Shown: in pieces, positions 6,910-22,095 of the stretch
How positions within the stretch are numbered: position 1 is the first letter of the stretch
Layout: every line of letters begins with the position of its first letter
NCBI GenBank assembly: GCA_013314735.1
Contig: JABUFD010000002.1
Coordinates: forward strand, 62,001-126,000
DNA length: 64,000 nucleotides
Reading direction: 5' to 3'
From: Anaerolineae bacterium
Lineage (GTDB): Bacteria > Chloroflexota > Anaerolineae > Anaerolineales > Anaerolineaceae
Made by a program: the position numbers and the translations under genes
Notes under the pieces: model-generated
What the model saw: the letters and a program-made list of their open reading frames with translations, nothing else
Databases searched by the model: none
Told to the model about the DNA's origin: nothing

Positions 6910-6934
6910 TTTTTTCTTAATGATAAGGACTACA

Positions 6935-8251
6935 ATGAACAGCAAGTCAGTGTTAATGGAAAAGTTTGCCAACAAGTCCGCTCTCGTAGCGGTGATGGGT
7001 TTGGGATATGTTGGTCTGCCCCTGGCAGTGGTATTTGCCGAAGCTGGGTTTCAGGTGATTGGGATCGACCCGGTGGAAGAGAAAATTCGCCTGATCAATG
7101 ATGGTGTCAGTTATATTCAGGATATTGAGTCAGAGCGGGTGACTAAACTGGTCCAGGCGGGAAAACTACAGGCCAGCACGGATTTCTCCCGTCTGAAAAT
7201 GGCCGATGCGGTGGCAATTTGCGTGCCGACTCCACTACGGAAGACCGGTGATCCGGATATCAGCTATATCATTTCGGCCGCTGATGGCCTGTCGCCATAT
7301 GTTCATCCGGGGATGGTGGTCAGCTTAGAATCCAGCACCTACCCGGGTACAACCAGTGAACTCCTGGTACCGCGCCTGGCAGAAGCGCGTGGCCTGGTGG
7401 TTGGCAAAGATGTTTTTATCACGTTCTCACCAGAACGGGTTGATCCCGGTCGTGAAGATTGGACAACCTACAATACCCCCAAGGTGTTGGGTGGAATGAC
7501 CCTTGATTGTACCGAGGTGGGCACAGCATGGTATGCCCAGGCGCTGGAAACCGTTGTTCCGGTCAGTTCGACCGAGGTGGCTGAGATGGCGAAATTGCTG
7601 GAAAACACCTTCCGCATGATCAATATTGGCCTGGTGAATGAATTGGCGATCATGTGTGAACGGCTGGGGGTAGATGTGTGGGAAGTGATCAATGCCGCGG
7701 CGACCAAGCCGTTTGGTTTTATGAAATTCACGCCTGGCCCCGGCCTGGGCGGTCATTGCATCCCAATTGATCCACTGTACCTGTCCTGGAAACTGCGTTC
7801 GTTGAATTACAACGCACGCTTCATCGAGTTGGCGTCTGAAATCAACACCCAGATGCCCCGTTTTGTCGTGCAGCGTGTGCAGGATGCGCTTAACAACCAC
7901 CAGAAAGCTTTGAATGGTTCAAATATTCTGGTGCTGGGAGTGGCTTATAAACCGGACATTGACGATATGCGGGAATCGCCGGCGCTGGATGTGATTCATC
8001 TGCTGCGGCAAAAGGGGGCGGAGGTTCATTACCATGACCCTTACGTTCCCGCCATTGACCATGATGGGATTGTGATGACTTGCGTTAAGGACTTAATTCC
8101 CGCAGTGCGGGAAAGTGATTGCGTGGTGATCGTCACCAACCATAGCGATTATAACTATACCGACATCCTGGACAATGCCCGGTTGATCTTCGATACCCGC
8201 AATGGGATGGGATCGCTGGGAAAGGACCATCCCAAAATCGTGAGGCTGTAA
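6935..8251 (+). CDS. Nucleotide-sugar dehydrogenase (UDP-GlcNAc/UDP-glucose 6-dehydrogenase family)
   Basis: 438 aa. It oxidises C6 of a UDP-sugar to a uronic acid using two NAD+. MGLGYVGLPLA is the Rossmann NAD loop, FSPERVDPG lies mid-protein, and GPGLGGHCIPIDP carries the catalytic Cys; VLGVAYKPDIDDMRESPA begins the C-terminal domain. The GGHCIPIDP form is typical of the WbpA/WbpO/TviB branch rather than of plain UDP-glucose dehydrogenases. The ATG at 6935 is chosen because AAGGAC stands just before it, while the upstream ATG at 6920 has none. It is the first gene of the polysaccharide cluster. Confidence 0.9.
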   Translation: MNSKSVLMEKFANKSALVAVMGLGYVGLPLAVVFAEAGFQVIGIDPVEEKIRLINDGVSYIQDIESERVTKLVQAGKLQASTDFSRLKMADAVAICVPTPLRKTGDPDISYIISAADGLSPYVHPGMVVSLESSTYPGTTSELLVPRLAEARGLVVGKDVFITFSPERVDPGREDWTTYNTPKVLGGMTLDCTEVGTAWYAQALETVVPVSSTEVAEMAKLLENTFRMINIGLVNELAIMCERLGVDVWEVINAAATKPFGFMKFTPGPGLGGHCIPIDPLYLSWKLRSLNYNARFIELASEINTQMPRFVVQRVQDALNNHQKALNGSNILVLGVAYKPDIDDMRESPALDVIHLLRQKGAEVHYHDPYVPAIDHDGIVMTCVKDLIPAVRESDCVVIVTNHSDYNYTDILDNARLIFDTRNGMGSLGKDHPKIVRL

Positions 8252-8253
8252 CC

Positions 8254-9228
8254 ATGGGTGATTATCTGGTTACCGGCGCAGCGGGTTTCATTGCGTACCG
8301 GGTATGTGAATTGTTGCTGGAGCAAGGGCACCGTGTGGTTGGCATTGACAATTTTTCGCCAGATTATGATTTGCGCATCAAGCAGTGGCGCTTGCAGCAA
8401 CTGCGGCAAAAGCATGCATTCGACTTCATCCAAGGCGATGTCGCGCGGATGGAGGATGTGGAAGCTTGTTTCCGGAATCGTCATTTCGCGGGTGTGATCA
8501 ATCTGGCGGCTCGTGCGGGGGTCCGTGCCAGCGTGGAAGACCCGTGGAGTTTTGTTAATACCAATATGGTTGGCACGCTTAACCTGCTGGAACAATGCCG
8601 GCTGCACGGCATCACCAAATTTGTCCTCGCCTCCACCTCCAGCCTGTATGGGAATGATGCCCCGCTGCCCACACCGGAGACCGCAGACAGCGACCATCCG
8701 CTGCAACCGTATGCCGCCAGCAAAAAGGGGGCAGAGGCGATGTGCCATGCCTACCATTTTCTCAACGGGATAGATGTGACCATCGTGCGGTACTTTACGG
8801 TGTATGGTCCTGCCGGGCGCCCGAACATGGCCATGTTCCGCTTCATTCAGTGGATTTCCGAGGGGCGTCCACTGCAGTTGTACGGTGACGGCGAGCAAAC
8901 ACGTGGCTTCACTTATCTGGATGATATCGCCCGTGGCACGATATTGGCGCTTCAACCCATCGGGTTTGAGGTGATCAACCTTGGTGGGCATGAGGTGGTG
9001 AGTATTAATCGGCTGATTGTCATGCTGGAAGAGATTATCGGAAAAACAGCCAACATTCATCGGACAGAAGCCCACAAAGCGGATATGCAAACCAATCATG
9101 CTGATGTGCACAAAGCGCAGCGTTTGTTGGGCTGGCAGGCCGAAGTAGGCCTGGCGGAAGGATTGCGGCGTTCAGTGGCGTGGTATCTGCAGGAACGGGA
9201 TTGGGCCTCACAGGTGGCGACAGAGTGA
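8254..9228 (+). CDS. NAD-dependent sugar epimerase (extended SDR, UDP-glucuronate 4-epimerase-like)
   Basis: 324 aa. TGAAGFIA binds NAD, SSLYG precedes the catalytic YAASK dyad, and RYFTVYGPAGRPNMA plus LYGDGEQTRGFTYLDD are typical of UDP-glucuronate/UDP-galactose 4-epimerases. It starts 2 bases after the dehydrogenase stop, so it probably interconverts that enzyme's product. The exact substrate is inferred. Its stop overlaps the GTG start of the flippase gene (GTGA). Confidence 0.88.
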   Translation: MGDYLVTGAAGFIAYRVCELLLEQGHRVVGIDNFSPDYDLRIKQWRLQQLRQKHAFDFIQGDVARMEDVEACFRNRHFAGVINLAARAGVRASVEDPWSFVNTNMVGTLNLLEQCRLHGITKFVLASTSSLYGNDAPLPTPETADSDHPLQPYAASKKGAEAMCHAYHFLNGIDVTIVRYFTVYGPAGRPNMAMFRFIQWISEGRPLQLYGDGEQTRGFTYLDDIARGTILALQPIGFEVINLGGHEVVSINRLIVMLEEIIGKTANIHRTEAHKADMQTNHADVHKAQRLLGWQAEVGLAEGLRRSVAWYLQERDWASQVATE

Positions 9229-10604
9229 ATTTTCTGAAACGGTTTTTCCAGGATGTAGTGCACTGGTTTCGGGAGAGTCCCCGTCTGCGGCGCATCTTCC
9301 GCGACAACAGTTACCTGTTCAGCTCGAATGTACTTAACATGGGGCTGGGGATCATCCAGAGCAGCCTATCGGCAAGCCTGCTGGGCGTATACCAGTTTGG
9401 CCTGCTGGGGATTATCACCGATTCCGCGTCCACCATCAATAACCTGTTTTCGTTCCGGATGGGCGAACTGATTGTAAAGTACCTGGGCGACCATCTTGAA
9501 GACCAGGAGCATGAAACCGCCGGCGCCCTGGTTAAAGCGGCAGCAATGATCGAATCAAGCTTTGCCATTCTCGCGTTTGTGTTCCTATACTTTGCTTCAC
9601 CGCTGTTATCACGCCTGCTTGCCAAGGATGCCAGTTTGCAGCCCCTGTTCGTGTTTTACGGGCTGATCATTCTCAGCAACTTGTTTTATGAAACCGCCTA
9701 TGGGGTGGTGCAGGTTTTGGGGCGGTTCCGCGGACATGCCATCGTCAATTCCATCCAGAGCGTGGTGACCGCGGTGTTGATTGTGATTGCTTTTGTCACC
9801 CACGGTGGACTGGAAATGGTACTGCTGGCGTACCTGGTAGGAAAGATCATTCTCGGCCTGGGGCCGGTTTACCTGGCAATTGACGGTTTGAACAAACGGA
9901 TCGGCTCTGGTTGGTGGAAGGCATCCTTGCGGAACCTGCCGCATTGGAAAGAACTGCTCCATTTTGGGCTGGGTTCCAATTTTTCAGCCACGGTTAACAT
10001 GATCGTGCGCGACAGTGAATTGTTGTGGGTTTCCTTCTTCCTGTCACCGGCGGAGGCTGGCTATTACAAAGTCGCCATGGCGATTAACCGCTACCTGTTG
10101 CTGCCAATCAATCCATTCATCCAGACCACATACCCGGAGATCAACCGCCATGTGAAAAACCAGGAATGGCAACCGCTGCGCAAATTTCTGCGGCGAATCA
10201 CCACTTTTTCCGGCGCGTGGACAGGTGCGGCGGCCATCGGGCTGGCTCTGTTTGGCAGGTGGGTGATCCTGTTGTATGCAGGGGAGGAATTCCTGCCGGC
10301 ATACGGCGCGATGCTGATCCTGCTGGTGGGATACGGCCTGGCCAACACCTTTTTCTGGAACCGGTCCCTGTTGCTATCCTTCGGCGATTCGCTATACGCT
10401 TTCCTCACAATGTTGTTTGCCGGGGGAATTAAAATTATTGGTGCTTTCTTCCTGGTGCCCTCTTATGGTTACCTGGCGGAGGCCTGGTTGTTTGCCAGCT
10501 TTTTCGTGGTATCCGTGGCACTCAACCTGCTGCGTGGACGGCAGCGCATCCGGCGGGGTGAAATTGCATTTCCTTCAGTACCCTCGGGGAGTGAAACCGG
10601 ATGA
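9225..10604 (+). CDS. Polysaccharide flippase / oligosaccharide translocase
   Basis: 459 aa, about 12 hydrophobic spans with short loops, MOP-superfamily type. The GTG at 9225 overlaps the epimerase stop. An amphipathic N-terminal stretch (FLKRFFQDVVHWFR) precedes the first span, and YQFGLLGIITDSASTINNLF resembles the start of Wzx/MATE-like exporters. It would flip a lipid-linked glycan across the cytoplasmic membrane. No Wzy-type polymerase or chain-length regulator is seen nearby. It overlaps the glycosyltransferase start by 4 bases. Confidence 0.85.
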   Translation: MNFLKRFFQDVVHWFRESPRLRRIFRDNSYLFSSNVLNMGLGIIQSSLSASLLGVYQFGLLGIITDSASTINNLFSFRMGELIVKYLGDHLEDQEHETAGALVKAAAMIESSFAILAFVFLYFASPLLSRLLAKDASLQPLFVFYGLIILSNLFYETAYGVVQVLGRFRGHAIVNSIQSVVTAVLIVIAFVTHGGLEMVLLAYLVGKIILGLGPVYLAIDGLNKRIGSGWWKASLRNLPHWKELLHFGLGSNFSATVNMIVRDSELLWVSFFLSPAEAGYYKVAMAINRYLLLPINPFIQTTYPEINRHVKNQEWQPLRKFLRRITTFSGAWTGAAAIGLALFGRWVILLYAGEEFLPAYGAMLILLVGYGLANTFFWNRSLLLSFGDSLYAFLTMLFAGGIKIIGAFFLVPSYGYLAEAWLFASFFVVSVALNLLRGRQRIRRGEIAFPSVPSGSETG

Positions 10605-11749
10605 AGATCGCTGTCGTAGCCTCTTCGTATATTCCATCCAATGCCGCCAATAGCATCCAGGTGATGAAGGTCTGCCAGGCGCTCATCCAGGCCGGCAGTA
10701 CAGTGGAATTATGGGTGCCGGAAGCTTTCAACCAGAACCTACCGGATTGGCCCTTCCTGCAAACTTTCTACGGGATTGAAACTGAGTTTCCGATACATTG
10801 GGTGCGTGAAAACTTACGTCTCCGTCGCTATGACTTTACCTGGAAGGTCCTGCGCGAGGTGCGTCAATGGGATGCCGATGTGGTGTATACCTGGATGGCA
10901 CAGGTGGCATACCTGGCTCTGCTGAATCATGTGCCAACTGCATTGGAATTGCATATGCTGCCCACCGGCAAACTGGGGCCGTGGCTGTTGAGACGTGTGG
11001 TGGAAACCCATGGACGAAAGTTATTCCTGCCAATTACAACTGCATTGCTGGAGAAACTGGCTCAGGCTCACCGCATCGAATTGCCTGGTGAATCCGTCCA
11101 GATCGCACCGATGGGGTCCGAACCGGAGCGATACCATTCCCTACCCGGCGCGGTTGAATGCCGTGCTCGCCTAAATATGCCAGACCAGCTTACAGCGGCG
11201 TATACCGGCCACCTGTATCCCGGGCGGGGCATGGAACTGCTGGTTCACCTGGCAAAAGCGTTTCCAAGTGTGCAATTTTTATGGATTGGTGGGCGCGAAC
11301 CCGACGTGGAAACATGGCGTGACCGGATTAAGACGGACGGCATTAAAAATATCCTCCTGACAGGATTTATACCCAACGCGGAGCTGCCGTTGTACCAGGC
11401 TGCCGCTGATATTTTGCTGATGCCATACGGCAGGAATGTGGGCATTTCGGGCGCAGGTGACACAGCTGACGTGTGCAGTCCGATGAAATTGTTCGATTAT
11501 CTATCCGCTGGCAGGGCGATCCTGTCCAGTGATCTGCCGGTGATTCGAGAAGTATTGTCCGAGGATAATGCACGCTTCGCCCAGCCGGATGACCCAGCCT
11601 CCTGGGAGATTGTGCTGGGTCGGATGATTGCAGACGAACCGCTGCGTGCGAAGCTGTCAGCGAACGCCAAACTGGATGCGGAACGCTACAGCTGGCTGCG
11701 CCGTGCCCAAGCAACGGTAGATTATTTTGAGTCGGATGTGGGAAAATGA
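10601..11749 (+). CDS. Glycosyltransferase, GT4 type
   Basis: 382 aa, two Rossmann-like halves. The N-terminus (KIAVVASSYIPSNAANSIQVMK) is the usual GT-B start. AAYTGHLYPGRGMELL opens the C-terminal domain, and SPMKLFDYLSAGRAILSSDLPVIREVL is the GT4 donor-binding region with the E/D-containing loop. It probably adds a sugar to the repeat unit made in this cluster; donor unknown. ATGA overlaps link it to the genes on both sides. Confidence 0.88.
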   Translation: MKIAVVASSYIPSNAANSIQVMKVCQALIQAGSTVELWVPEAFNQNLPDWPFLQTFYGIETEFPIHWVRENLRLRRYDFTWKVLREVRQWDADVVYTWMAQVAYLALLNHVPTALELHMLPTGKLGPWLLRRVVETHGRKLFLPITTALLEKLAQAHRIELPGESVQIAPMGSEPERYHSLPGAVECRARLNMPDQLTAAYTGHLYPGRGMELLVHLAKAFPSVQFLWIGGREPDVETWRDRIKTDGIKNILLTGFIPNAELPLYQAAADILLMPYGRNVGISGAGDTADVCSPMKLFDYLSAGRAILSSDLPVIREVLSEDNARFAQPDDPASWEIVLGRMIADEPLRAKLSANAKLDAERYSWLRRAQATVDYFESDVGK

Positions 11750-13787: not shown

Positions 13788-14366
13788 TCATTCGAGGTTC
13801 AATAATGCCTCTATCGTTTTAACCGTCTGTTGCAACAGGGGCCGCAGGTGAGGGTGTGACTCCATCCGCTCCCGGTAGATGACCATCAATTCATGGTAAT
13901 ACCAGCAGGTATCCTCACGCGACGCGTTGAACAGCGTCCACAATTGGGTGCCGATCTCATCATGGGTGATGATGCTGTCGAGTGCGTTGTGCAATTTATC
14001 CGCCGCAGATACCATCAGAGATGATGCGTCTGTGGTCCGCAGGTGCTCCAGGTAGGCGGTTTTTCGTTCTTTCCACGGCGGTTTGGGCTGCTGGTCGGTG
14101 TCAGAGCAGGATTGCACAATGTGCGCCACCCGTTTGCCAAACTGCGCCTCGATCATTCCCAATGTAACAGCGCCGCCCTGGTCTTCCACCGCATCATGCA
14201 GCAGGGCGGCGATAATTTCATCGTCATCACCGCCAAAGCGCATCACAATGGCGGAAACAGCCAGCAGGTGGGAAATGTAGGGGGTTTCACCGTCCTTCCG
14301 CCTTTGGTGCTGGTGCAAATCTGCCGCGAGTTGCAGGGCTTTTGCGAATTGTAAATGGTTTTTCAT
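13788..14366 (-). CDS. HD-domain hydrolase, SpoT/MESH1-like
   Basis: 192 aa, about the size of small alarmone hydrolases. The order of motifs follows the SpoT/MESH1 HD fold: His in AADLHQHQRRKDGETPYISH, the HD pair in ALLHDAVED, and a later Asp in SAADKLHNALD. It may hydrolyse (p)ppGpp or another nucleotide; no synthetase or regulatory domain is present. AGGAG precedes the ATG. It lies 10 bases downstream of the beta-helix gene and is probably co-transcribed with it. Confidence 0.82.
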   Translation of the reverse strand: MKNHLQFAKALQLAADLHQHQRRKDGETPYISHLLAVSAIVMRFGGDDDEIIAALLHDAVEDQGGAVTLGMIEAQFGKRVAHIVQSCSDTDQQPKPPWKERKTAYLEHLRTTDASSLMVSAADKLHNALDSIITHDEIGTQLWTLFNASREDTCWYYHELMVIYRERMESHPHLRPLLQQTVKTIEALLNLE

Positions 14367-14376
14367 GGCGCTCCTT

Positions 14377-17250
14377 TTATCCCGGCTCTGCCTGGTCTCT
14401 GGCTGTATCTGTTGGTGGCGAAACCCTTTGCCGGTGATTCCCCCACTTGCGGATCAGCCACAACGCACCAGTGAGGAGTATCAAGCTACCGAGGATGATG
14501 TAAAGTGTTATGTAATCATTGTAACGGAAGGCACCGACATCGGTGAAGGCAGGCATGAATATCATGTGCACAAACACCGCGCTCACGGTGATTCCCAACA
14601 ACCACCAAATCTTGCGGTTCCATTGATAAATGCTTGCCCCGGCCGATTCGGCATAGGGCAATAGGCTGAAGAACACGGATTGAACCCCGAAGAAAAAGAC
14701 CGTCAGCAGCAGGATTTCCAGTGCAGGCTGGGTGCGAGTGAATACTGCCGAAAGTCCCCAGCAGGCCATTGACAGTAAAAAGATACCGGACAGAACCGAT
14801 AGAGAGGAGATCCCATCGCGTTCCTGAGCCAACTCCGGCAGGAGCAAAACCGAACCAACCAGCCCGACCACAATCCCAGGTGAAAAGTGGAGCAATCTGG
14901 AGATGAGAACACTCAGCATCACAAACAGGATCGAGCGAAATTCGATTTCCGGTTTGAAGCGGCATGGTTCCTTCCATGCTTTCCGAACCAGCCAGGCTGA
15001 CCCGACTTCTGCCAGGCTCAGGATGACGGTAACAACCAGCAGGAGAAGAAATAACTTCAAGAAGGGAACAGAAAACAGTGCGTGGTCTTCCAACATAGAC
15101 TGTGCCAGGGCTGTGGAGGTCAGGATAGCCAGCCATGTCACGAGGTGGATGACAGGTTTGCCAGCAGTTCGAATGGTTGTTGTGCGCTTTTTGCCCATTG
15201 GCACCTGGCGCTGAAACAGCCTGCGGGTTGCATCCGGCAGCCATTCTGTTGACATATTTGCCAGAAGATTGCTCGCGATAAACAGGAAAATTGCAATTCC
15301 CAGGCTGATCCCGACCACCTCCGGGTCGGTGGAGATGCTTAATGGCCCTGTGATCCCGGTCAGGGAGGTAACTTCAGGCGTACGGACGTAATATGGGGCA
15401 GAAAAGACCGAGGTGCTGTTATCAGCGCCTGACGCGATAGCGGTAAGGTTTTTCTCCAGTTGGAAATTATCTCTGGGAATGGTGCAATGGAATCGCCCCC
15501 TGGTATTCGCTGTGCATGCAGCGGCAAATTGTTCACCCTGGTCGGCTGTGTCAAAGTACAGTTCCACCTGGCTGCCCGGAGCGGAATTGCCCAATACCGT
15601 CAGGGTGGTGTATGATACCGTCACGATCTCCGGTGGTGGCAGTTGATCTCCCTGAGGCGTCCAGTTTTCGATGCCAATTTTACCGTTCTGGTAAATGCTG
15701 TTACCGCTGATCGTGGTCAGGGTGCAGTCTCCGATGTCGATTCCGTGCATGGCATTGTGAGCCACGTGGTTGCCTGGACCAATGGTGGTGTAATACGCGC
15801 TGTGCAGGCAAATGCCAAACTGGTTGCCATCCACCTGACCTTGCCTGGTGATTCCGACCCAATTGCCTGTCATTTGGGCATGGCTGCTTTCATAGGCATA
15901 AATACCGCAGTTTCCGGATGCAATAATCTCATTCCCGATGATCGCGTCGTCGCTGCCGACCACCGAGATGCCAAACACACTGGCACCACTGATAAAATTG
16001 TTGGGTCCAACCTGGCTGGCCTGGGTGCCCTGCATGAGGTAAATGCCGGTTTCCATTCGTTCGGTGTCGGTGGAGGAATCATAGGCAACCAGGTTTGCAG
16101 CCACCACGGTTTGAGATGAAGGCGGGGCAACCACAACCGCATTGACCCATTCTGATTTCCGATCTTCGGGTGACAGGGCGCTGATCCGGTTTCCTACCAC
16201 CCAGTTTTCATTGCCAATCACCAGGATGCCGGCGGAGAACCCGGTGATGTCGTTACAATTTCTTTCGCAAACCACCGGGTAAGTGCTTTCCATATCTGCA
16301 CTGCCGATAATATTTCCGTGACCTTCCACGATGACACCAACGTTAAAATTCTGGATGTGCAGCCCTTTGATATCATTCCCATCGGAAGCCAGGTGAATCC
16401 CGGCGCCAATGTGCGGGTTGGCTGGTTGCAAGGCAGGAAAGACCCGGTTGACGCCATCCGGCACGACCCCGGAGAGGGCTACCCGTTGCCAGGCACCGCT
16501 TTGTGGTTGGGTGGTGTCATTGAAACTGGCAGCTTCATCGACCCCTTCCATTCGGTATGCAAACATGGCGATGTGTGGATCCCCTTTGTAACTGTAATGC
16601 AGTTCCAATTGGTCGCCGGGTTCCACCGTGTACCATGCTGTGGAATCTTCGGCGTATAATTCGTACCAGACCTTACCAGCGACAAGATCGTGATAAAGGA
16701 TCAGGTTGTCTGGTGGACGGTTGCCAAAGCGGATGCTGCCAGAATCGGCGTGCCCATCTCCGGGCTCCCATGTCAGCCAGTTATCGGTGCGGGATGGATC
16801 CTCCGGCTGCCAGTTATCGAGACCTTGCGCGAAGTTGCTGGCAAATTGCTCCTCGCCGTTGATCGAGAATGCAATGTCATCCACCAAGGTGTTGACCTCC
16901 ACGTTGATCCCGCTTCCATCGAGAATCACCCCGGCGTCAGAAGCGTCAATGGTGATAAGGCCCTGAGAGATGGACGGCAATTCCTCTGTGAGGTGAATGA
17001 CCTGTGGGTTATCCGGCGGAAAGGCCGCGGGTTCAAAACGGACCACGCTCCCGCTGGTTGCCTGTTCCAACGCCTGCCGCAAGGAGCCGGGTCCGTCATT
17101 GCCGGTGTGAGTCACCAGGATAACGTTGTTTTGGGTTTGCGCCTGGAGCACCGCCATCGGTGGGGACAGGAATAATAGAAGAAGGATGCAGGTAACGGTA
17201 ATGTGCAATGATTTCATCAGAGAACCCCGCGAGAATGAGTTTTTTTTCAT
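14377..17250 (-). CDS. Secreted right-handed beta-helix protein fused to a multi-span membrane domain
   Basis: 957 aa from the ATG at 17250; an ATG at 17217 is also possible, and a TATAGT -10-like box just upstream of 17250 would favour it. A signal peptide leads to a GNDGPGSLRQAL repeat start typical of beta-helix surface proteins, then about 450 residues of short beta-helix turns with recurring Asn/Gly-Ile patterns (GHGNIIGS, GNENWVVGN, GNHVAHNAMHGI). A short linker follows, then about eight hydrophobic spans to the end. The outer part may bind or cleave a polysaccharide; the membrane part is not recognised. The fusion is unusual. Confidence 0.75.
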   Translation of the reverse strand: MKKNSFSRGSLMKSLHITVTCILLLLFLSPPMAVLQAQTQNNVILVTHTGNDGPGSLRQALEQATSGSVVRFEPAAFPPDNPQVIHLTEELPSISQGLITIDASDAGVILDGSGINVEVNTLVDDIAFSINGEEQFASNFAQGLDNWQPEDPSRTDNWLTWEPGDGHADSGSIRFGNRPPDNLILYHDLVAGKVWYELYAEDSTAWYTVEPGDQLELHYSYKGDPHIAMFAYRMEGVDEAASFNDTTQPQSGAWQRVALSGVVPDGVNRVFPALQPANPHIGAGIHLASDGNDIKGLHIQNFNVGVIVEGHGNIIGSADMESTYPVVCERNCNDITGFSAGILVIGNENWVVGNRISALSPEDRKSEWVNAVVVAPPSSQTVVAANLVAYDSSTDTERMETGIYLMQGTQASQVGPNNFISGASVFGISVVGSDDAIIGNEIIASGNCGIYAYESSHAQMTGNWVGITRQGQVDGNQFGICLHSAYYTTIGPGNHVAHNAMHGIDIGDCTLTTISGNSIYQNGKIGIENWTPQGDQLPPPEIVTVSYTTLTVLGNSAPGSQVELYFDTADQGEQFAAACTANTRGRFHCTIPRDNFQLEKNLTAIASGADNSTSVFSAPYYVRTPEVTSLTGITGPLSISTDPEVVGISLGIAIFLFIASNLLANMSTEWLPDATRRLFQRQVPMGKKRTTTIRTAGKPVIHLVTWLAILTSTALAQSMLEDHALFSVPFLKLFLLLLVVTVILSLAEVGSAWLVRKAWKEPCRFKPEIEFRSILFVMLSVLISRLLHFSPGIVVGLVGSVLLLPELAQERDGISSLSVLSGIFLLSMACWGLSAVFTRTQPALEILLLTVFFFGVQSVFFSLLPYAESAGASIYQWNRKIWWLLGITVSAVFVHMIFMPAFTDVGAFRYNDYITLYIILGSLILLTGALWLIRKWGNHRQRVSPPTDTARDQAEPG

Positions 17251-17560
17251 TTTACTATAAATTTGAGTATGGGCTGGAATGGCCGTAAGAATACGGTGCA
17301 CGGTGCGTATTGCGAGTCTTTTCCTAACAAGGTGATTGGAAGCCGGAATTTCATTTCTGTGTATGGGAGATTGATTAACAACGTTTTCATCAAACATAGG
17401 TCTACAGGCCTATTGCCGTGTACGCATGGTATGACCCTGGAGGGGGGCGACCTACCAGGAAACCGTCAAATTATGTCCTCCCGCACTTATCGAGTGCAGA
17501 GGAAAACGATACACTTCAATCATTATTCAGATCATTCCTGATTCATTCCCCGGAGCCATC
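17251..17560. other. Divergent intergenic region, no gene seen
   Basis: 310 bases between the divergent beta-helix and plsC genes, more AT-rich than the flanks. It holds a TATAGT box on the minus strand at 17255-17260 and a small hairpin (GCACT, 5-base loop, AGTGC) at 17483-17497. A short open frame on the plus strand has no ribosome site or family features. No strong -35/-10 pair was found for plsC. Confidence 0.5.
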
Positions 17561-18280
17561 ATGCTAAAAAAGCGCTATCATTTCTTCCACCGTATTGTCA
17601 GTAACCTGTTTGCAAGAGCCTTCTTAAATTACAAAGTATTCTGGGACGCACCCCTGCCGGACGAGGCTGTTATTTTCGCCGTGAACCATCCCACCACCAC
17701 CGACCCGTTGCTGCTCCCGATCATCACCCGGCGGCCACTGGCAATCCTGGTGACCGAAATGGCGTTTGATCTCCCGTGGTTTGGTCCCGTCCTGCGGGCG
17801 GCCGGCCATATCCCGGTACGGGTGAAAACCTCCAACGGTAAAGGCCTGATCGAATCTGCCGTGGAAATGCTCAAGATCGGTCGTTCTGTGGGAATTTTCC
17901 CCGAAGGTATTCTCAGTCCCAAGATGGGCAGTTTTCATCATCCCCATTCAGGTGCGGCACGGATTGCCCTCACCAGCGGTGCCAAAGTAGTGCCAGTAGG
18001 CATCCATATGATGGAAACGGGCTATACCAGCACGGTGACCAAATCGGAGAATTTCGAATCCACCAGTCGTTGGGCAGTGCGTGGGCCGTATTATCTCAGC
18101 GTCGGTGAAGCGATGACCTTTACTGGCGATGTCGAAAACCGTGAATTGGTGAACCAGGTGACCCATAAAATTTTCGAGGCCGTCAAGCACCAGGCACATG
18201 CCAGCGAAGAACGTGTGATGGCAGAACAGCCGTTGTGGCAGCCACTCTCGCGCTTGCTGTGGGGAAATCCCGCTGACTGA
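17561..18280 (+). CDS. plsC: 1-acyl-sn-glycerol-3-phosphate acyltransferase
   Basis: 239 aa. It transfers an acyl chain to lysophosphatidic acid at the membrane. The catalytic H-x4-D box reads NHPTTTDPLL, and the substrate box FPEG is found in the middle. The length fits the PlsC family. GGAG stands shortly before the ATG. It is a single gene closed by a strong shared hairpin terminator. Confidence 0.88.
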   Translation: MLKKRYHFFHRIVSNLFARAFLNYKVFWDAPLPDEAVIFAVNHPTTTDPLLLPIITRRPLAILVTEMAFDLPWFGPVLRAAGHIPVRVKTSNGKGLIESAVEMLKIGRSVGIFPEGILSPKMGSFHHPHSGAARIALTSGAKVVPVGIHMMETGYTSTVTKSENFESTSRWAVRGPYYLSVGEAMTFTGDVENRELVNQVTHKIFEAVKHQAHASEERVMAEQPLWQPLSRLLWGNPAD

Positions 18281-19568: not shown

Positions 19569-20387
19569 TTACGGTTCTTTGAAAAAACGCAGGGAAAGGC
19601 AGCTCAAGCCGCCATCCATTTTTTGGAATTCTTCCATTACCAGTGGAATCAGGGAATAGCCTCTGGTTTCCAACTGGTCGGCGAGGTGATCGTAATCCGC
19701 CGGAATCAGGATATGTTCGTTGATGCGGATGCAGTTGGCAGCGTAATTCTCCTCCGGGAGGGTGATGATTTTTTCATAGTCGTTGAAGCATGCCATTTCG
19801 GCGAAATCCTGCCACATCACCAAGCGCTGGTCACCGATGTAAGCGATGCCGCTTTTGAGATGCAAGATGTTTTTCATCCCGCGGATGTCCACCATCACCG
19901 CCCGGTACCCATTCGACTCCAGGATGGATGCCAACTGATGGGCGCCTTCTTCATTGGTACGGTGTGAAATCCCGATGAAGAAAGTATCACCTGCATCACA
20001 GATGTCTCCGCCGTCAAGCGTACCCGGTTCTGTGATGCTGTAGACGGTTTGAAAATGTGCGCGGATGGTGTCTTCCATCGCCGAGACTTCTCCCGCGCGT
20101 GATGCCGCGCCGGGGCGGGTCATCACGGCAAAATGGGGGGTGACGATGGCGGTGTCTTCAACGAAGGTACCGTCAGGATAGCTGTCATCCGCCGGTAATA
20201 CGGTTACCTGCAATCCGCAGGCGGTTTTCAGCGCTGCTATGTAGGCGGAATGCTGGAGCCGTACGGTCGGGTAATCGGGAATCCCAAAATCGACACTGGT
20301 CAATCCTTCGGCGAAGTTGGTACCGGGGATGCGGACAATGGCATGGGTAAATGTATAAGATGATTCCATCGGGTTTTCAGAAGACAT
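19569..20387 (-). CDS. Dimethylarginine dimethylaminohydrolase-like (amidinotransferase fold)
   Basis: 272 aa, close to the DDAH family length. These enzymes hydrolyse methylated arginine to citrulline plus an amine. PDGTFVEDTAIV, GTLDGGDI, a catalytic His in HLKSG and a catalytic Cys in GLSCLSLRF near the C-terminus match the DDAH/arginine-deiminase pattern. AAGGA precedes the ATG. The substrate could instead be another guanidino compound. It is followed by an MFS gene, and a second MFS gene diverges from it upstream. Confidence 0.85.
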   Translation of the reverse strand: MSSENPMESSYTFTHAIVRIPGTNFAEGLTSVDFGIPDYPTVRLQHSAYIAALKTACGLQVTVLPADDSYPDGTFVEDTAIVTPHFAVMTRPGAASRAGEVSAMEDTIRAHFQTVYSITEPGTLDGGDICDAGDTFFIGISHRTNEEGAHQLASILESNGYRAVMVDIRGMKNILHLKSGIAYIGDQRLVMWQDFAEMACFNDYEKIITLPEENYAANCIRINEHILIPADYDHLADQLETRGYSLIPLVMEEFQKMDGGLSCLSLRFFKEP

Positions 20388-20784
20388 GGTTTTTCCTTGC
20401 CAGAATGGGGATTGGACAGTGAATTTGCCCTGATTTCAATCTAGTATAACCGAATTTGGCAGTTCTGCGGGCTGATGATTCCTATTGTATTGTCAGTATG
20501 AAGCATTGATTTCCCGATGGATTCACCTGCAAAAAGGTAACCGAATGTGCAGGCTTCTCTCCCTTTCTCTGACACCCGGCCTGTACTTGCTTTGCCAACA
20601 GCGTGTTTTTTTACCTGGTGGAGGACGTCCATGCATGGTCAACAAAAGCACGTTTCGGTATAATACTTTTCATTATGAAGGGAATGGCGGCTGTCGCCAG
20701 TACACGGAAAGCAAGGCCGGCAGAGGCAGGAATTCTGTCACTTTTTGTAAAACAATTACACACTTTCCACAGGAGGAGAGCACT
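20388..20784. other. Divergent intergenic region and MFS leader
   Basis: 397 bases between the DDAH-like gene (-) and the second MFS gene (+). It contains the promoter at 20636-20664 and about 115 bases of untranslated leader before the TTG start. A TATACT box near 20450 on the minus strand could serve the DDAH-like gene but lacks a good -35. No convincing coding sequence or RNA structure was seen. Confidence 0.5.
20636..20664 (+). promoter_or_regulatory. Sigma-70-type promoter for the MFS gene
   Basis: TGGTCA (4 of 6 to consensus), 17 bases, then a perfect TATAAT at 20659-20664. Confidence 0.5.
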
Positions 20785-22095
20785 TTGACCACAATCCAGA
20801 TCAGCCGTTTCAGTGATGAAGCCAAACGTGCCAATTGGCGAAAATCGTTCCTGGCATTTGAAGCGATTTTCTACTTTTTCCAGGGGGTGTACCTGACCGG
20901 TATGCAGACCTTCCTGGCGGTACGCATGGCCGAATTCGGCCTGACGCTTTCGGAACAGGCCAGTTTCAGCGCATTGATCGGGCTGCCAACCTATTTGAAA
21001 ATGTTCATCGGGTTGTTATCTGACCGCCTGCCGTTTGCCCGTTTGGGACGGCGTAAACCCTACATCGCCCTGGGGGCACTGCTCTACGTTCCGGGGTTTG
21101 CCGTTTTATTCGGCGTGAAAGGCTTTAACGGGTTGTGGGTGGCTGCAGCGGTGGCGGTGCAGATTGCCTGGGTCATGGTGGATACCACCCTTGATGCCTT
21201 GACAGTGGATGTGACCCCGGATGAACACTCCGGCGCGATCCAGGGCGCTGCGCAGGGCGCGCGCATGCTGGGGATGGGCGCGGGTATTCTCCTGATTCCG
21301 CTGTTGGGACCGAAGATCGGTTGGGATACTGCTCTGATTTTGATCGCCGTTTTCGCGCTGATCCAGGGGGCTGCCGCCCTGTTGTTCCGCGAATTGCCTG
21401 TAGACCGGGAGCAACTGCGGACAGAAATGCCGTTGGGACAGGTGATAAAACGGGTGTTTTCGCGACGACTTTCATGGCTCAGCATCCTGTTTTCAGTATT
21501 CTTCATGGGGTCAATCGGTTTGAGTTCGGTGATCTCCGCCTATTTGCTGACAGAATTGGGTTGGGCTGCCGATCCGGCGTTAATGGCTGTATATGGTACA
21601 GCCAACCTGGTGCACTATGGGGCAGCCGCGCTGGGGTCGGCGGTTGCGGGGCGTTTCATCGCCCGGTATAAGAATAACCCGGTATTTTACGCTGTGGTTT
21701 CGATCCTGTTCTGGGTCTCGATCCTGCCGTGGTTCCTGGTGGGCAGCAGCGGGGAACGCATGTTCTGGGTGTACGCGGCACAATTGACCTATGGGATCGG
21801 GCGCGGGATGATGACGGTGCTGGTGTATTCCGTGGTGATGCGGGTGTGTCCGAAATCGCTGGAAGGTTTCATGTTTGCGACGCTGACATCGGCAATGAAT
21901 TTTGGGCTGTATACAATTACACCCAAAACGATGGCATTTTTTACAGAACGGATCGGCCTGGCGCCGAGTATGTTCTCGGCGGTGCCGTATACGATCATCG
22001 GGCTGCTGGCGCTGGGTTTGATCCTGCGTGACCTGGCGAAACAGGAATCCGTGCGTGATGTTGTTCCAGAGAGAGGCCAAGCACCGAGCGGGTAG
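20785..22095 (+). CDS. MFS transporter, AmpG/PAT-like (TTG start)
   Basis: 436 aa from a TTG at 20785, chosen because AGGAGGAGAG ends 4 bases before it and hydrophobic homology begins soon after; the open frame upstream is non-coding leader. About 12 spans. LLSDRLPFARLGRRKPYI and VDTTLDALTVDVTPDEHSGAIQG parallel the motifs of the MFS protein at 18354-19538, so they are likely paralogues. Substrate unknown; proximity to a DDAH-like enzyme hints at a guanidino or amine compound, but this is only inference. Confidence 0.82.
   Translation: MTTIQISRFSDEAKRANWRKSFLAFEAIFYFFQGVYLTGMQTFLAVRMAEFGLTLSEQASFSALIGLPTYLKMFIGLLSDRLPFARLGRRKPYIALGALLYVPGFAVLFGVKGFNGLWVAAAVAVQIAWVMVDTTLDALTVDVTPDEHSGAIQGAAQGARMLGMGAGILLIPLLGPKIGWDTALILIAVFALIQGAAALLFRELPVDREQLRTEMPLGQVIKRVFSRRLSWLSILFSVFFMGSIGLSSVISAYLLTELGWAADPALMAVYGTANLVHYGAAALGSAVAGRFIARYKNNPVFYAVVSILFWVSILPWFLVGSSGERMFWVYAAQLTYGIGRGMMTVLVYSVVMRVCPKSLEGFMFATLTSAMNFGLYTITPKTMAFFTERIGLAPSMFSAVPYTIIGLLALGLILRDLAKQESVRDVVPERGQAPSG

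Follow-up and report, generated by a model that had tools for sequence, protein, structure and literature searches.

The gene on the minus strand at 14377..17250 of the window, as we call the 64,000-nucleotide stretch of DNA analysed here, raises the question of why a right-handed beta-helix should be joined to a large membrane domain in one reading frame, and whether the product works with the HD hydrolase encoded beside it. The open frame extends from 14377 to 17397 with zero internal stops, and the ATG at 17250 gives a protein of 957 aa, P0001, whose gene is single copy in the 4.09 Mb draft genome. The ranking of GC content by codon position (third highest, second lowest) is identical in the beta-helix part and the membrane part, and it is flatter across the short Ig-like stretch at residues 530-640. 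Because proteins of equal domain order occur in three other Chloroflexota genomes at 28-29% identity, the beta-helix and the membrane domain form one real fused protein, and a frameshift chimera is ruled out. A sequence-only reading of the window had described a beta-helix outside the cell and a large polytopic domain in one gene, a description upheld by the full-length homologues and the Pfam matches. It had also considered a frameshift, of which neither the homologues nor the codon-position GC gave any sign.

All parts of the ectodomain lie on the minus strand. The protein starts with a signal-peptide-like N-terminus (residues ~1-38; 17137..17250) with a hydrophobic stretch at residues 17-35, followed by a beta-helix N-terminal cap carrying an NDGPGSLRQAL motif (residues ~40-121; 16888..17133) that is kept in all four of the aligned homologues. 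Next comes a predicted beta-sandwich insert (residues ~122-282; 16405..16887), to which AlphaFold2 assigned strands at 122-276 with low confidence. The right-handed beta-helix itself spans residues ~283-530 (15661..16404) and passed two Pfam models, namely PF13229 Beta_helix at residues 283-464 (E 1.1e-9, 38.5 bits against a gathering cut-off of 25.9) and PF05048 NosD at residues 396-528 (35.7 against 23.6). A predicted Ig-like domain (residues ~540-614; 15409..15633) links the helix and the membrane part. It matched PF17936 Big_6 with an E-value of 0.014 in P0001, and the three homologues gave values between 1.7e-5 and 0.016; each of these four matches is under the cut-off. The beta-helix of about 450 residues that had been proposed is thus present, although the proper helix covers residues ~283-530 plus the cap, the rest being the insert and the Ig-like domain.

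Structure prediction gave a similar layout. The full-protein model (pLDDT 56, built from four sequences) contained beta strands at residues ~40-610 and helices from residue 643. In a Foldseek search with this model, in which the beta-helix was the main part covered, the top rows were beta-helix proteins (8wm1 at E 4.2e-8, phage tailspikes), and rows to the alginate epimerase AlgG and DFA-IIIase were non-significant. The putative likeness of the insert to carbohydrate-binding modules is weak, consisting of non-significant rows to CBM4, CBM16 and CBM22 folds, all at E >0.08, on a low-confidence model. The whole protein searched against PDB sequences gave zero matches at E-values up to 1.

The membrane module occupies residues 636-931 (14458..15345, minus strand) and was delimited by an NCBIfam match together with an alignment with 13 homologues. 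A domain search of the C-terminal part, the check proposed for this region, identified it as similar to NF041501 (cola_mem, 'FGLLP motif-containing membrane protein'), with an E-value of 1.6e-15 over profile positions 5-312 of 312; in the 14-row alignment the similarity spans the full domain. The score of 56.9 bits is under the curated cut-off of 150, and the literal FGLLP is absent from P0001, which reads FSLLP, with SAG replacing LPG. Because of this score and this substitution, we regard the membrane part, judging by its sequence, as a divergent relative of NF041501 rather than a member. Eight related module proteins all matched the same model (E <=8.5e-13, 48-106 bits), none of them over the cut-off. 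Conserved features of the module are an arginine, a PGxxxG motif (AGxxxG in L020), LLP..G and tryptophans. In P0001, the second of these appears as PGIVVG (P/A-G-x3-G; residues 791-796, 14863..14880) and the third as LLPYAESAG (residues 863-871, 14638..14664), where the family has FGLLP..LPG and the three closest homologues have LLP/LIP..LDG. In the open-access full-text library searched, FGLLP or NF041501 was found in zero papers, and likewise no function for NF041501 was found.

The topology of the module is better read as about nine spans, with the N-terminus out and the C-terminus in, than as eight. A plain hydrophobicity scan showed seven clear spans in addition to the signal-peptide-like stretch, and two weaker spans bring the total to nine hydrophobic stretches between residues 645 and 933. 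With borders drawn by eye, the nine-span arrangement places 21 K/R residues in inside loops versus 3 in outside loops. The earlier description of an eight-span domain was therefore right about its polytopic nature, while nine spans fit the loop charges better. Zinc ribbons immediately C-terminal of the module in three relatives (L069-L071) fit an inside C-terminus, as does the extra hydrophobic stretch that precedes a Bmp domain in L072 and a beta-rich tail in L112. By the same loop-charge analysis, P0001 ends in a short basic tail, presumably cytosolic (residues 934-957; 14380..14451), of ~24 residues in which no domain was found.

Scanning the genome collection with the membrane part of the protein retrieved three loci, JAIOTF010000167.1 (Anaerolineaceae bacterium SMBSF63), QMOK01000119.1 (Chloroflexi bacterium B10_G9) and WFSA01000295.1 (Anaerolineae bacterium S016_13). 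These are close relatives only, because the query was a three-row alignment; the first two were part of that query and the third was newly found. All three homologues align with P0001 end to end, and each has a beta-helix or NosD match and a weak Big_6 Ig-like match N-terminal to the membrane part. A remnant at 9343-9771 of L074, in a genome of the same family (G624), retains a C-terminal piece only (48% identity over 143 residues), with a TGA inside the matched stretch. The module itself extends beyond these relatives. NF041501 matched 29 of 350 genomes of the phylum at E <=0.001, 12 of the 350 above its cut-off, and among 400 genomes of the order, 21 had a match to a 14-member module profile at E 0.001, with 13 reaching <=1e-20. 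Its distribution within the order is sporadic. Outside the phylum, the 14 control genomes yielded one match, in Sulfolobus acidocaldarius, below the cut-off.

The ectodomains attached to this module differ from protein to protein. Whole-protein Pfam scans covered 20 of the 26 modules (L013, L016, L020, L021, L022 and L075 were excluded, and L074 and L077, which match partially or weakly, were also outside the scan). Four of the 20 carried beta-helix/NosD domains, these being P0001 and its three homologues, two carried SBBP propellers, two RCC1 repeats and one a lamin-tail domain. The others comprised one protein in which a Bmp domain follows the module, one with zinc ribbons only and nine without a recognised domain. 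Zinc ribbons lie C-terminal of the module in three of the 20, including both RCC1 proteins. In L069, L070 and L071, the outside part consists of RCC1 repeats or an unassigned ectodomain and the module is followed by zinc ribbons, joined in L070 by TPR; it is possible that these are receptors with inside domains. Two near-tandem module genes in one genome (G141; L144 5638-7761 and 10043-12175) have N-terminal parts that differ. An uncharacterised membrane domain model is now tied to a pattern in which one module carries many interchangeable outside domains, and this swapping, along with the inside domains of some relatives, has the look of receptor or scaffold families.

Based on these findings, we propose, with about even confidence, that P0001 is a cell-surface receptor or adhesin in which a beta-helix ectodomain is mounted on a non-catalytic membrane module. 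The ectodomain would lie outside and the tail inside with the module of about nine spans between them, an arrangement supported by calculation. The beta-helix and its carbohydrate-binding-like insert would hold a glycan of the surface or of the environment, the Ig-like domain would serve as a stalk, and the module would act as a non-catalytic anchor that may relay the state of the ligand to partners in the membrane or the cytosol. The full-length architecture shared among four genomes and the reuse of the module with swapped ectodomains both support this proposal. The sequence-only reading had suggested a surface glycan receptor that signals inward. A surface receptor stays the most plausible reading, but no domain was found in the tail of ~24 residues, and therefore an inward signal would need a partner.

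An open reading frame comparison of 28 neighbourhoods found no gene family recurring in at least four loci, apart from module genes, antisense shadow frames, ABC ATPases (six loci) and one unassigned family (four loci, three of them from one genus); therefore no partner is indicated. In one of the homologue genomes (G028; L064 4606-9402), the genes after the fusion encode a histidine kinase, a lipoprotein, a response regulator and another beta-helix lipoprotein, the start of which is similar to the start of the fusion protein (49% over 85 residues). The kinase and the regulator were named by reading their sequences, and such a two-component neighbour occurs in only one of the four genomes with the fusion. 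No paper in the open-access library searched dealt jointly with a right-handed beta-helix, a transmembrane part and a surface protein in Chloroflexi.

The predicted fold of the module hints at a different role for it. It could be a site-2 protease (M50) fold that has degenerated and lost its zinc site, and that as a pseudoprotease binds membrane segments in a manner controlled by the ectodomain, an idea that we put forward tentatively. When 998 chains were realigned to the module model (pLDDT 59, pTM 0.57, built from four sequences), the top three Z values all belonged to site-2 proteases, namely 3b4r (6.9; 148 residues, rmsd 4.8), 8vjl (5.5; 128 residues, 3.9) and 8vjm (5.0; 141 residues, 5.1), the best unrelated row having 4.5, although Z values <8 are common with helical models. 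Foldseek gave zero matches at E <=0.001 with the module model, and the highest probability among the 50 matches listed, 0.63, was for SpoIVFB (8vjl and 8vjm). The three closest homologues (L110, L111, L112) read L(L/I)PLxVLDG, resembling the NLLPxxALDG that related genomes have in their M50 proteins, and Pfam Peptidase_M50 weakly matched L065/L111 (E 0.0088). P0001, however, lacks the LDG third-ligand stretch and reads SAG.

Sequence comparisons gave no significant support for M50 membership. In profile-profile comparison with two M50 alignments, the probabilities were 0.2-0.7% and did not exceed those of reversed alignments or the flippase control (0.7-4.8%). Among 14 module members searched against Pfam, one matched M50 (E 0.048) versus three that matched 7tm_7, and profile searches of PDB sequences at E-values up to 10 retrieved no M50 chain. 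The HExxH motif, searched as H[EDQ]xxH, was found in none of the 26 modules; therefore the module, even if it has a site-2 protease fold, is not a usual M50 protease. We regard an S2P-like fold as a possible reading of the predicted structure. A broader version, in which a zinc-less site-2-protease fold became a general bacterial membrane platform for many ectodomains and some cytosolic domains, so that the module would define a family of pseudoprotease receptors, strikes us as doubtful.

The main rival to the receptor or adhesin proposal is a surface-tethered enzyme, in which the beta-helix would act on polysaccharide as a lyase, a depolymerase or an epimerase, and the module would do no more than hold it at the surface. 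Its attraction lies in the structural rows, which include 8wm1, tailspikes, AlgG and DFA-IIIase, yet in fold searches such enzymes come up for most beta-helix folds regardless of role, and no lyase or epimerase family of Pfam or NCBIfam matched. A set of polysaccharide genes in a row at 6920-11749 on the plus strand (UDP-sugar dehydrogenase, epimerase, flippase and glycosyltransferase) would suit such an enzyme, but it is on the opposite strand and separated by three genes. The contig of one homologue (G516) has a gene that we read by eye as a GH3 beta-glucosidase. On balance, we consider a tethered enzyme unlikely. For an enzyme tied to export, which had also been suggested, we found no support for export. 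The polysaccharide set of the window is followed by a lipoprotein-like gene and then by a gene with an NBR1-type Ig-like domain (PF16158).

The gene adjacent to that of P0001 invites a further explanation. It lies at 13788..14366 on the same strand, 10 bp downstream, and AAAAGGAG precedes its ATG. Its product of 192 aa matches HD_4 at residues 10-129 (E 1.8e-25; 89.9 bits against 27.2), is without a synthetase domain, and hits small alarmone hydrolases in the PDB (best 7qoe at E 3.4e-54, then 7qoc at 1.9e-30 and MESH1 at 2.3e-14). Its sequence marks it as a predicted small alarmone hydrolase, probably a separate one of housekeeping type. The beta-helix protein and this hydrolase could form one system coupling a surface signal to alarmone levels, in line with the pairing with a SpoT/MESH1-like HD hydrolase proposed from the window alone. 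The shared strand, the 10 bp spacing and the good ribosome-binding site ahead of the HD gene speak for such a system, and the two genes may be co-transcribed here.

Comparison among genomes speaks against it. A close homologue of the HD protein (at least 43% identity over most of the length) occurs in 12 of 33 genomes, with the genome of the window counted. A genome of the same genus (G001, 69% complete) retains the gene order NBR1-like, HD, PlsC, MFS, MeaB and B12-binding, and no beta-helix gene was found between HD and PlsC; the counterpart of the latter in the window, a divergent PlsC-like acyltransferase at 17561..18280 on the plus strand, forms the outer border of the segment missing from that locus. 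None of the 12 other HD loci, this one included, had a beta-helix gene in the flanks examined, several of the contigs being short. Conversely, no HD gene was found near the three other beta-helix genes or the remnant in G624, the contig of G516 stopping ~430 bases past the gene. A close hydrolase was not found in G728, and in G028 the matches were limited to RelA-type frames and a partial one of 46 residues. Absence of HD from homologous loci was the outcome that the sequence-only reading had named as refuting its proposal. The proposed pairing therefore amounts to adjacency, the link being lost in other genomes, and we rejected a functional pairing, since HD is kept without the beta-helix gene in G001 and beta-helix copies are kept without HD elsewhere. 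We consider a joint system very improbable and the adjacency most likely a local accident, tempting from one genome and failing under comparison. In the open-access library searched, no paper linked a beta-helix with a small alarmone hydrolase.

The history of this segment appears to involve more than one change. Spacer DNA from the locus in G001 showed no usable similarity when aligned with the window, so insertion and loss of the beta-helix gene are not separable. The same-genus locus (L098) also lacks two genes present at 19569-22095 of the window, one deiminase-like (ADI family) and one of the MFS type, the only similarity there being one transporter cross-matching the other; this stretch thus differs through two or more independent gains or losses. 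Finally, although the genome of the window is a draft of 13 contigs, the chance that an assembly or sequencing error fused two genes is negligible, as the fusion recurs in three independent assemblies from other genera and codon-position GC is steady along the gene.

Collectively, P0001 resembles several known systems in part. It is above the cut-offs of both Beta_helix and NosD, and it differs from those families in that the helix is interrupted by an insert and fused to a membrane module; against the NosD equivalog-type model TIGR04247 it scores 17 versus 300. With NF041501 it shares the R, PGxxxG, LLP..G and W positions, differing in its score (57 bits versus 150), its FSLLP and its SAG in place of LPG. 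The likeness to small alarmone hydrolases (7qoe, 7qoc, MESH1) concerns the HD neighbour and not P0001. Site-2 proteases of the Peptidase_M50 family (3b4r, SpoIVFB 8vjl) show a weak fold likeness to the predicted model of the module and share, with the homologues of P0001, an LxPxxxLDG-like stretch, whereas the module has HExxH in none of 26 cases and no significant sequence relation to them. There are precedents for intramembrane-protease folds retained as regulators or stabilisers, namely EGY3, which is S2P-like and lacks HExxH (PMC10978774), and iRhoms, which lack the catalytic motif (PMC3149277). For these precedents, sequence kinship to M50 is clear, whereas any such kinship of the module is putative. 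If the S2P-like fold is true, the module would be a bacterial example of an intramembrane protease converted to a regulator.
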